DNA from: an uncultured Lachnospiraceae bacterium
Lineage (GTDB): Bacteria > Bacillota > Clostridia > Lachnospirales > Lachnospiraceae
DNA length: 64,000 nucleotides
Assembly: GCA_944383545.1 (NCBI GenBank)
Contig: CALWPY010000004.1
Coordinates: forward strand, 62,001 to 126,000
Direction of reading: 5' to 3'
Both the position numbers and the translations under genes were made by a program. Below, in pieces: positions 19,453 to 38,909 of this stretch (position 1 is the first letter of the stretch; every line of letters starts with the position of its first letter). The notes below the pieces were generated by a model. It ran no database searches and was not told the origin of the DNA. It was given only the letters and a program-made list of their open reading frames with translations.

Positions 19453-19610
19453 ATCACCAATCCGAAGGATTGATGATGCACGCACAGCGCCATCGCGGAG
19501 CGATTTTCATGCGCTGTGCTCATTATATCATGATTTTGCTTCGCTTCATCATGATTCGCGCACACTCGCCAAATGTCTGCTTCGCAGCCGCTTGGCTCCT
19601 TGTGTTCGCG
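19453..19610. repeat. Composite hairpin repeat, copy A (four consecutive hairpins)
   Basis: Fills the 232-bp gap between ktrA and kdpD. Hairpin 1 (19453-19477): ATCA..AATCC/GGATT..TGAT. Hairpin 2 (19482-19519): GCACAGCGC/GCGCTGTGC enclosing ATCGC-GGA-GCGAT. Hairpin 3 (19527-19555): ATCATGAT repeated around GCTTCGCTTC. Hairpin 4 (19557-19610): CGCGCACAC/GTGTTCGCG with inner CCAA/TTGG and CTGC/GCAG. Hairpins 1 and 2 recur at 6326-6390. The hairpin 2 core (GCCATCGCG..GCGATTTTCATGCG) recurs twice inside the GH3 gene at 37231-37368. No terminator-like T-run is visible. Confidence 0.8.
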
Positions 19611-35859: not shown

Positions 35860-38799
35860 TTAAAAACCTCCTTCGTTATTATCGCTTTCCTCTATGTATT
35901 GGAAGCGGATTTCCTTTAATTTTAATCCGTTTGAAGTAACAAAAAGACGCATAACAGAAAATCGTTTTAACAATTCAAAATCCCTTGTAATCGTCATTTC
36001 TTTGCCACCTGTTCCATGGAAGGTAAATGTTCTGACCGGGTAATTCGTGTAAAAAAGTGTACACGGTATCTGTGCCAGTTCAGAAAGTTCCGAACTTCCT
36101 GTCAGGCTTATCCTGTATTTTCCCGGTTTACTTATATCAAATGGCAAAACATAATTTGTTCCTGCATTTGAAGGCTTATCATCCAGAGTAATCGTGATTT
36201 CTCCATCCAAAGTAATGAACTTAACATCAGACAAATCAATGTCCGTTTCTTCTTCCGGGCGATTTATAACTGTTACCTTTGTCCCAATTCCAAGTAAACG
36301 CTTCATAGCTTCCGTTTTCATAACAAATCTGCAGATGTTTGCAGCATTTCTCTGCAGCTCCGCACGGGATATCCTGCCGGAAGCAAGTGCCTCAAGCGTA
36401 TTGTCACCCCCGGCATTTGTGGAGCCGTCCGGACACACCATATAAATATCGTTTTGTGCCCTTGCCATAGCGGCAAAGTTAATTTTGTCCGGCTCGCCTC
36501 CTCTTTCGTTTATGGATGCCCACCAGTCGGTCATGACAATTCCCTGAAATCCCCACTGATTTCTTAAGATAGTCGTACAGAGGTCATAATTTCCTGCGGT
36601 CCAGACTCCGTTCACCGGTCCGTAAGTTGTCATTATCGCATCTGCAACACCGCTACGTACAATCATCTCAAATCCTTTTAAATAAATTTCCCTAAGCGCA
36701 CGCTCAGAAACAACCGAATCTGCAAAATGACGTTTTTTCTCCTGATTATTTGCACAAAAATGCTTTGCTGCTCCCGTCACGCCGGATGACTGCAAACCTT
36801 TAAGCATAGCCATTGCAAATTGTCCTGTCACATACGGGTCTTCTGAAAAATATTCAAAATTTCTTCCGTTTAACGGATGTCTGTGTATATTCATACCGGG
36901 GCCAAGCAGACATTCCACTTTCTGCACAATCATTTCAAGTCCCGTGCAGGCATAAAGTTCTTCAACAAGCTCCGTGTTAAACGTGCATCCTATCAGTGTG
37001 CCGTTTGGTAAGCTGAATGCCTTAACTCCACAATCTAACCGCATACCTGACGGACCGTCACTACAACATACTGACGGAATCCCGAGCCTGTGAATAAGGG
37101 AATCAGAAACTCCTCCAAATGCGGATGCCGTTCCCGGTGTAACAAGCGAGCTTCCCATTCCTTCTCCTCGAATGATACAGCTTAGGTCGTCATCTGTCAT
37201 CTGGGCGATAAACTGCTCCATTGTTACATATGCCGCCGACCGAAGGGAGGGGGCCATCCGAGACGCCATCGCGATGCGATTTTCATGCGTCTCGTCCTCT
37301 GCCGCCGACCGTAGGGAGGGGGCCATCCGAGACGCCATCGCATTGCGATTTTCTTGCGTCTCGTCCTCTGCCGCCGACTTCCATACGTCTGCAAGCTGAA
37401 ACTCCGTCTCATCCGTCTGTGCAATCGGCTCCGGTAGGAGCTTCCTTCTTTTTTCCTCCGTATCATCTTCCTTTACAGGAACTTCTTCCATTACAATTTT
37501 ATATTCTCCGTCCTGCCCTTTTTCAGGCCTCATGCGCTCAAATGACTCTACCGGAGCAAGTGCTGACGGAAGCTCCTCTAAAACAAGCAGACTATCCTGT
37601 GCAAAGCTTCCGGACAGGTCCGCTTCTCTGACATTTTCACCGACATAAAAACGGTAAGTACCTGCCTCAAGCACCGATGCATGAGAAGCTCCCGACTTTC
37701 CTGTATCATCATATGATGAAAAACTGCTGTATGGAATTTTAAATTCCAGTTCTTCTTCCTCTCCCGGCAAAAGCTTTTTCGTCTTTTGAAATGCCACAAG
37801 AACTCTTTTCGGTTTTCCGAGCATTCCCTGAGGTGCTTCTGCATAAATCTGTACAACTTCTTTTCCTGCAGTATCGCCACTGTTTTTCACGCGTACACAT
37901 ATGGAAATGGTCTGAGCTTCTGCTTCATTATCAAACGAATCCACACTAATCTGAAATGTTGTATAGGAACATCCGTATCCAAACGGATAGCGTACCTTTT
38001 CCTTTGCAAAGGTTTCAAAATACCTATATCCCACATAAATATCTTCACAGTAATAATTTCTTTCTTCGTCTCCAAAATATGCATCGGACGGATAATCGGA
38101 AATATCATATGCAACCGTATCCGTAAGATGTCCTGACGGAGAGACAGCGCCGGTTAAAACATCTGCAACACCAAGACCGCCTACCATACCTCCCTGCCAT
38201 ACATACATTACGGCTTCCGGCGTATAGCGCTCCACAAAGCTCATATCTATAAGTCCGCCTGTGTTTAAAAGCACTATCATTTTCGTAAAATGCTTCCGTA
38301 CAACAGCAAGCATTTCTTCCTCAATATCTGTCAGTCTGTATGAGCCCTTTGTATTGCTTGAGTCCTTGTCTTCTCCTGCCGTTCTTCCGATTATAACAAC
38401 TGCGGCGTCAGAAGACTTTGCGGCTTTCTCTGCAACTGCATCCGAAAGAGGCATTTCTTCCTGGCTCCACGGCTCGTTTCCCCAGCCTTCGCCTTCTACA
38501 AATGGATTTTCCTTATCCCATTCCTTGTAAACCTGTAAAAGTTCTTCATTCAGCCTGACTGCTCCACTCTCCTGCAGTCCGTCCACGATTCCCATTACCT
38601 TTGATGTAATTACCATGCCGCCGGAACCTGTTCCGCTTTTATAATAATGATTCTGAATCCGCCCGAAAACGGAAATACACTCTCCCTTTTTTAATGGCAG
38701 TGCTTTATCCCGATTTTCCAGCAGGACACAGCCTTCCGCTACTGTCTGTCTTGCAAGTTCCAAATATCTGTTCCAGTCTAAAATCACCTGATTTGCCAT
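35860..38799 (-). CDS. Family 3 glycoside hydrolase (beta-glucosidase type), reversed domain order, with a 2 x 23-residue repeat insert
   Basis: A protein of 979 residues whose domains run in the reverse of the common order: the C-terminal alpha/beta domain first (AEGCVLLENRDKALPLKKG, ending YPFGYGCSYTTFQI), then the fibronectin-III-like domain, then the catalytic barrel (from about 545; PSVCCSDGPSGMRL, GPGMNIHRHPLNGRNFEYF, KHFCANNQE). The nucleophile Asp is in VMTDWW. Such swaps are known for Butyrivibrio and Ruminococcus albus beta-glucosidases. Between the FnIII-like and catalytic parts lie two copies of SAAEDETQENRNAMASRMAP-type sequence, encoded by tandem hairpin repeats. No signal peptide. 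Start ATG 38799 has AAGGAG upstream. Confidence 0.88.
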   Translation of the reverse strand: MANQVILDWNRYLELARQTVAEGCVLLENRDKALPLKKGECISVFGRIQNHYYKSGTGSGGMVITSKVMGIVDGLQESGAVRLNEELLQVYKEWDKENPFVEGEGWGNEPWSQEEMPLSDAVAEKAAKSSDAAVVIIGRTAGEDKDSSNTKGSYRLTDIEEEMLAVVRKHFTKMIVLLNTGGLIDMSFVERYTPEAVMYVWQGGMVGGLGVADVLTGAVSPSGHLTDTVAYDISDYPSDAYFGDEERNYYCEDIYVGYRYFETFAKEKVRYPFGYGCSYTTFQISVDSFDNEAEAQTISICVRVKNSGDTAGKEVVQIYAEAPQGMLGKPKRVLVAFQKTKKLLPGEEEELEFKIPYSSFSSYDDTGKSGASHASVLEAGTYRFYVGENVREADLSGSFAQDSLLVLEELPSALAPVESFERMRPEKGQDGEYKIVMEEVPVKEDDTEEKRRKLLPEPIAQTDETEFQLADVWKSAAEDETQENRNAMASRMAPSLRSAAEDETHENRIAMASRMAPSLRSAAYVTMEQFIAQMTDDDLSCIIRGEGMGSSLVTPGTASAFGGVSDSLIHRLGIPSVCCSDGPSGMRLDCGVKAFSLPNGTLIGCTFNTELVEELYACTGLEMIVQKVECLLGPGMNIHRHPLNGRNFEYFSEDPYVTGQFAMAMLKGLQSSGVTGAAKHFCANNQEKKRHFADSVVSERALREIYLKGFEMIVRSGVADAIMTTYGPVNGVWTAGNYDLCTTILRNQWGFQGIVMTDWWASINERGGEPDKINFAAMARAQNDIYMVCPDGSTNAGGDNTLEALASGRISRAELQRNAANICRFVMKTEAMKRLLGIGTKVTVINRPEEETDIDLSDVKFITLDGEITITLDDKPSNAGTNYVLPFDISKPGKYRISLTGSSELSELAQIPCTLFYTNYPVRTFTFHGTGGKEMTITRDFELLKRFSVMRLFVTSNGLKLKEIRFQYIEESDNNEGGF
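37231..37368. repeat. Two tandem in-frame 69-bp copies of the dispersed hairpin repeat inside the GH3 gene (copy C)
   Basis: Units 37231-37299 and 37300-37368 differ at only a few positions; a third copy of the leading TGCCGCCGAC begins at 37369. Each holds the core GCCATCGCG..GCGATTTTC.TGCG seen at 19489-19514, with a private stem GAGACGC/GCGTCTC. Sixty-nine bases is 23 codons, so the reading frame is kept and each copy adds 23 residues. Removing both copies would leave ...VWKSAAYVTMEQF, a plausible ancestral join, because SAA borders each copy. Confidence 0.85.
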
Positions 38800-38839
38800 A
38801 ATAAAAGTCTCCTTTTCAGTAATCAAGATTATTAATTTG

Positions 38840-38868
38840 ATTATATGAAGAGCATGAGGATTATGCAA
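38840..38868 (-). promoter_or_regulatory. Promoter of the GH3 operon
   Basis: Minus strand TTGCAT (38863-38868), 17 bp, TATAAT (38840-38845), 41 bp before the start codon. Confidence 0.55.
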
Positions 38869-38909
38869 GAAATTTCGGACATTTATGCTGTATAAGTGCC
38901 AGAACAAAA

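Follow-up and report, generated by a model that had tools for sequence, protein, structure and literature searches.

It is very probable that 46 residues that separate the Fn3-like part of a GH3 enzyme from its catalytic part represent two copies of a dispersed, non-autonomous 69-nt repeat with two hairpins, that one copy entered the linker of the enzyme and doubled in place, and that this unit is related to the Rfam family GA-cis. The gene is located in the analysed window (the whole stretch of DNA, 64,000 nt in length). According to the proposed mechanism, the repeat dispersed through the host genome, and one copy would have entered the GH3 linker and then doubled there, probably through slippage or through direct-repeat recombination. 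A stop-poor unit with a length that is usually a multiple of three would leave the insert open and translated as a flexible stretch, and related insertions would have arisen in PheT, a YfhO/GtrA membrane protein and a glutathionylspermidine-synthetase-like (GSP-like) protein. We infer both the translation of the insert and the order of these events.

The GH3 gene and its double insert

The repeat units were scored with R1, a covariance model built from 16 units; both GH3 copies belong to the alignment of this model, and their E-values should be read accordingly. The features of the gene are as follows.

35860..38907, minus strand, GH3 beta-glucosidase-type gene (ORF and Pfam; 1015 aa counted from the first TTG)
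37231..37299, minus strand, repeat unit, copy 2 in coding order (peptide EDETHENRIAMASRMAPSLRSAA; R1 match with E=1.7e-15)
37300..37368, minus strand, repeat unit, copy 1 in coding order (peptide EDETQENRNAMASRMAPSLRSAA; R1 match with E=2.4e-14)
37369..37377, minus strand, 9-nt remnant TCGGCGGCA (coding strand), identical to the 3' end of the unit and preceding copy 1 in coding order

The Pfam domains of this ORF are GH3_C, Fn3-like and GH3_N, in that order, and the insert lies ahead of GH3_N. The copies are arranged head-to-tail, are 69 nt each and are read in frame on the minus strand, in agreement with the first-pass annotation, which had described two 69-bp tandem copies adding 2 x 23 residues at the boundary of the FnIII-like and catalytic parts. 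They are 94% identical, and since they differ at 4/69 positions an assembly artefact is unlikely. The remnant TCGGCGGCA ahead of the first copy suggests that an additional copy may once have stood there.

An alignment of orthologous proteins, proposed in the same annotation as a check, was performed with the best 80 of 591 candidates found by a search of genome contigs (identity 48-63%), and the 46 residues are present in none of these 80. Eight of them have short unrelated residues at the insert site, and the alignment contains 48 gap columns (~144 nt) in which the linker is uncertain. The family name Lachnospiraceae is suggested by the titles of the GH3 relatives, among which Treponema and Ruminococcus occur too, and by an S10-Clostridia leader. 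An AlphaFold model based on a 40-sequence alignment has a mean pLDDT of 83.6, and its longest stretch with pLDDT <50, residues 482-521, falls within the insert (residues 478-523), where low-confidence helices are drawn. The best solved match of the model is 5k6m, a rumen GH3 beta-glucosidase (TM 0.97 by target length, 56% identity).

Hairpin structure of the repeat unit

The first-pass annotation had named one hairpin, which is present as hairpin 1, and its account was incomplete in that each unit also carries a second hairpin. In the copy at 37231-37299 these are located as follows.

37259..37294, strand not assigned, hairpin 1 (outer stem CGAGACGC/GCGTCTCG, inner stem ATCGC/GCGAT, T-rich bulge)
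37232..37254, strand not assigned (the copy itself is on the minus strand), hairpin 2 (imperfect GCC.CC..CC..GG..GG.GGC)

In a covariation test of the two-hairpin structure, 93.7% of cells pair and 10 pairs have changed on both sides; the score was reached by 0/500 shuffles and slid controls scored far lower, controls that flatter the result, since the copies are related and the structure was taken from their consensus. By one covariation measure, the number of further pair types, the units do not differ from shuffled ones (12 vs 12.1, with 356/500 as high). Four single units have unremarkable folding energies (z from -1.25 to 0.64), so that it is the covariation that carries the structural case. 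The two GH3 insert peptides differ at two residues, and we therefore take it that constraint would have acted on the DNA element more than on the encoded peptide.

Dispersal through the host genome

A BLAST search of the host genome with the 138-nt GH3 query gave 39 places at E<=10, and R1 gave 74 matches at the same threshold. At E<1e-5 there are 26 R1 matches at 20 loci, 16 of the 26 being the units that built the model. The whole-genome search envisaged in the first-pass annotation thus found the unit dispersed both inside and outside genes. At six of the 20 loci the unit lies in frame within an ORF, namely GH3, PheT, YfhO/GtrA, the GSP-synthetase-like protein, an ORF of 309 aa on C20 and one of 330 aa on C11; relatives show empty sites for the first four, and the insertions in C20 and C11:22689 are putative. 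By our own reading of positions, three other loci are at ORF 3' ends, one is in a decayed gene and about ten are intergenic. Mechanically called ORFs, 120 aa or longer, take up 88% of the window; compared with that share, genes appear to hold too few copies of the repeat, which would follow if insertion into a gene usually did harm. One unit, at L175:4199-4268, is not in frame; it sits in a gene region that had already decayed, upstream of an ORF encoding a CdiA_C domain.

R1 has no match at E<=0.001 in 194 genomes of relatives and in 396 other genomes of the family (the sets overlap), in scans with stricter filters that scored up to 26 and up to 12 candidates per genome, respectively, and that weak matches may escape. 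No match was found in viral contigs with two exact patterns, or by blastn in phage and plasmid records. From the dispersal of the repeat and its absence in relatives we infer that it is mobile. The compared genomes are relatives outside the host genus, and exact junctions and copy-number variation are beyond their reach.

As to the mobilising agent, Y1_Tnp (PF01797), the domain of RAYT-type transposases, has no match at E<=1e-5 in the host genome, while 5/14 control genomes match; on this result a RAYT/Y1 transposase was rejected as mobiliser. In a target-site test of 15 of the 20 loci, five mosaic or diverged ones being left out, the mean shared word was 3.73 compared with 3.71 in permutations (506/1000 as high), although very short duplications could escape this test. 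The lack of a Y1 match and of a visible target-site duplication, together with the mosaic structure of A/B/C elements, would suit copies spreading without transposition, through ectopic gene conversion or through recombination at short homologies of the hairpins. However, the proteins of relatives have no insert-like sequence at the empty sites, and the first entry would need another route; we consider this explanation unlikely, though the most serious of the competing ones.

Relationship to GA-cis

The closest relative found, judged by sequence, is the Rfam family GA-cis (RF02987), classified by Rfam as type Gene; sRNA. GA-cis has been proposed as a candidate cis-regulatory RNA. The full-length RF02987 model aligns to 37253-37333 of the plus strand, spanning the junction of the GH3 copies, with 28.0 bits; the best score of host units in the genome (G000) is 29.9 bits, and the Rfam gathering cut-off is 34.7 bits. 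Two conserved hairpins, the second of the form TGCCGCCGA..GGGGGC, are recovered by this alignment of the whole model, which bridges the two copies. In both GH3 copies, hairpin 2 (37232-37254 with the preceding T in the copy at 37231) is identical at 24/24 positions to GA-cis copies in G457 and G242, which belong to two other genera. Five other hairpin-2 words of the host agree with GA-cis at 20-23 positions, compared with 15-17 for a reversed control.

The host unit resembles GA-cis in having both hairpins, in its dispersal and in being tandem in places. It differs in the order of hairpins on the same strand, which is H1-H2 in GA-cis and H2-H1 in host single copies, and in its length of 69 nt, compared with mostly 82-90 nt in GA-cis, whose ends it lacks. 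As hairpin 2 is identical, the order is different and the score is below the cut-off, the host unit is best described as a permuted, shortened relative of GA-cis that is no member by the Rfam threshold.

At E<=0.01 GA-cis was found in 33/397 genomes of the family (host included), of which 28 pass the cut-off, and in 0/14 control genomes. It occurs in 29 other genera of the sample, almost always in non-coding positions, and its copy counts are at least those obtained, up to 10 candidates per genome having been scored. The sequences analysed, 114 of the 134 matches listed outside the host genome, form 104 loci, seven of them tandem. Inspection of 100 regions (L286-L385) revealed dispersed elements that often stand just before ORF starts and have AGGAGG-like tracts at both ends; such a tract begins most GA-cis elements. 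In the 102 loci with enough flanking sequence, an ORF start follows within 60 nt in 70, at 10-22 nt in 50 of them, and a purine-rich tract is present in the 3' flank in 71, all three being raw counts, uncorrected for background. The longest word common to both ends of a locus averages 6.39 nt, compared with 5.39 nt when ends are swapped (0/500 as high). These shared words would fit insertion into a Shine-Dalgarno tract with duplication, and tandem remnants could contribute to them. Contrary to such targeting, 32/102 loci have no ORF start within 60 nt downstream. Several GA-cis copies of G106 and G216 have longer flanks in common, and are therefore probably parts of larger repeats.

The spacer between rplW and rplB in the S10 operon contains GA-cis in G076 (L290), and the element is absent there in its congener G473 (L390) and in ten other genomes, 11 of 15 spacers being readable by pattern. 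The G076 spacer is ~122 nt longer than that of G473, the element itself accounting for 87 nt, and this copy does not adjoin a Shine-Dalgarno tract. Nine genes downstream of GA-cis, picked by eye from 38, are unrelated (GroEL, L2, CysS, RRF, DnaX-type, ABC, ROK, GH43 and a response regulator). It seems probable that GA-cis, a dispersed element, is mobile.

An alternative is that the repeat acts in mRNA, as a functional RNA or a regulatory element, and that its presence in ORFs was selected for that function. The name of GA-cis and its Rfam type hint at this, the compensatory changes keep the stems, and the 50/102 loci at 10-22 nt before an ORF start would, as a raw count, be in line with it. 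On the other hand, the nine downstream genes, chosen by eye as they were, are unrelated, in-ORF copies in the host genome occur in both orientations, and tandem arrays, absence from the congener at rplB and locus-specific direct repeats are better suited to a mobile element, which makes the regulatory explanation improbable.

Among the 114 matches, five are inside ORFs of at least 200 aa, and one of these was kept. This copy, in G350, which represents another genus, is in frame within a MATE-type ORF (L345:1379-2548); in the alignment of its product with BH2163, the query jumps from 137 to 165 where the solved chain goes from 219 to 223. The other four were dropped by eye, having unlikely frames or, in one case, being a match below the cut-off within an ABC-type ORF. 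The MATE case indicates that in-frame entry is not unique to the host genome, although it is seemingly more frequent there: six of 20 loci (two of them putative) for the host unit, compared with one convincing case in 104 loci for GA-cis, for which a longer ORF was required. A tentative extension, to which we give slightly less than even weight, is that GA-cis is a double-hairpin mobile DNA element which preferentially inserts at Shine-Dalgarno tracts and leaves the tract duplicated on either side, and that a shortened, permuted, stop-poor derivative in one lineage writes linker peptides, including one in an essential tRNA synthetase.

Insertions in other proteins

PheT of the host contains 25 extra residues (75 nt) at MYG|xGDFF that are absent in 29/29 aligned relatives, taken from the 59 other genomes in which pheT was matched. 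Since PheT is essential to bacteria, this insertion is very likely tolerated. In the YfhO/GtrA membrane protein, 37 residues (69+42 nt) are absent in G002, whose matching segments abut across query residues 357 and 394; further split matches, at 27-43% identity, are interrupted near the same point. The GSP-like protein has 46 residues (2x69 nt) that are absent in G033, with segments abutting across 223 and 269; the break is less exact in G051, and these two are the only ones of 60 other genomes that have the gene. No homologue of the C20 protein occurs in 60 relatives, its only matches being other repeat copies in the host, and its insertion is therefore putative.

The inserts of GH3, YfhO and the GSP-like protein use the same reading frame, PheT and the C11 ORF use another, and C20 is read from the opposite strand. 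In 20 full-length units, 86/120 frames are open compared with 62.1 in shuffles; with few stops in most frames and a length that is usually a multiple of three, an insertion in a gene can stay open. An alternative reading is that the insert never reaches the protein, being excised from the RNA or bypassed by the ribosome. Byp elements are mobile double hairpins of yeast mitochondria, and a GC-rich double hairpin in conserved genes, the essential pheT among them, brings such systems to mind. However, the three insertions measured exactly (75, 111 and 138 nt in PheT, YfhO/GtrA and the GSP-like protein) are multiples of three and free of stops in frame, neither of which skipping would need, and the sole out-of-frame copy in a gene sits in a decayed one; excision or bypass is highly improbable.

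Doubling in place

In a comparison of doublets that excluded the one on C20 and the partial copy in YfhO, mates were nearest neighbours in 5/5 cases. This pattern favours doubling in place over entry of a ready-made dimer, and a change of copy number in place is also suggested by the 9-nt remnant in GH3 and the 69+42 nt in YfhO. Doubling thus probably happened after insertion, as far as can be judged from the sequences. An ordinary tandem duplication of a native linker within GH3, with no dispersed element involved, would agree with the copies being tandem and nearest to each other, and short linkers often duplicate, but it is scarcely credible given that not even a single copy occurs in the 80 aligned orthologues and that the unit recurs at other loci, inside and outside genes.

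Comparison with known repeats

Palindromes inserted in frame have been described in Rickettsia, Wolbachia, enterobacteria and other groups (PMC2229807, PMC3733652, PMC2759123). Rickettsia RPEs, Wolbachia palindromes, Opitutus terrae REPs, ERIC/RU and Correia elements resemble the host unit: they are small palindromes dispersed over intergenic sites and over in-frame sites within unrelated proteins. A likeness to RPEs would predict that proteins unrelated to each other carry in-frame insertions whose sites are empty in relatives, and this is observed: the host repeat is an intergenic palindrome that also occurs in frame in ORFs and is absent from the orthologues of GH3, PheT, YfhO/GtrA and the GSP-like protein. 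By this analogy the repeat would work like Rickettsia RPEs, as a functional class set by the mode of insertion and not as a sequence family. The suggestion of the first-pass annotation, that a mobile or recombining palindrome is tolerated as a linker peptide in the manner of RPEs, is accordingly supported, mobility being deduced and doubling having probably followed insertion. Differences are the length of 69 nt (105-146 nt for RPEs, PMC2229807), the two unlike hairpins, the tandem doubling in place and the kinship with GA-cis.

REP/BIME and REPIN elements are likewise short dispersed hairpins occurring as singles and doublets, and intragenic REP inserts are dimers or grouped repeats in more than half of cases (PMC3733652). 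The host genome differs from those with RAYT-moved REPs and REPINs in having no Y1 transposase match, and no invariant GTAG or CGTC tag was seen by eye at one end in the 16-copy alignment. Terminal inverted repeats, characteristic of MITEs, were not seen by eye, the ends TTGGAC and GGCGGMA not being complementary, nor was the MITE target-site duplication detected at the 15/20 loci analysed.

Among the openly accessible literature, no title was found describing such elements in Lachnospiraceae. For GA-cis the only relevant mention found is one table row in the Rfam 15 paper (PMC11701678). Protein-coding palindromes clearly exemplify the gain of protein sequence from small repeats, and in the reports cited above they are known mainly from Rickettsia, Wolbachia and other Gram-negatives. 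A family in a probable Lachnospiraceae lineage, with an almost always non-coding relative, would make the steps comparable, from intergenic element through few stops and in-frame entry to doubling. If, as is also suggested, GA-cis, now catalogued as an RNA family, is dispersed mobile DNA, its copies would have to be annotated differently.

Cousin elements in the host genome

The window contains one related element outside the GH3 gene.

19454..19523, minus strand, intergenic cousin element of type C (R1 match C4:81454-81523, E=1.1e-4)

This element has the hairpin-1 core in common with the GH3 units and another second hairpin, TCATCAATCC..GGATTGGTGA. The core pattern with up to three mismatches has three matches in the window, the two GH3 copies and 19489-19513, compared with 0.00 expected from 100 shuffles, which bears out the earlier claim of a core shared with the hairpin at 19482-19519. 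The outer stem is unlike that of this hairpin, as had been stated, and the second hairpin of its element type makes it a cousin and not the source of the GH3 copies, consistent with the view that these are no simple paste of it. Type C occurs at 13 further places in G000; its copies are nearly identical, and thus perhaps younger. By eye, type-A units appear to harbour an element of a third type, B, either inside hairpin 2 or in the hairpin-1 loop, which would suggest a preference for hairpins as targets. Both sides of the nesting are visible in G000 at C16:1830-1981 and C5:20785-21017, and one side at C16:1772, C12:2208, C1:27408 and C1:62047.
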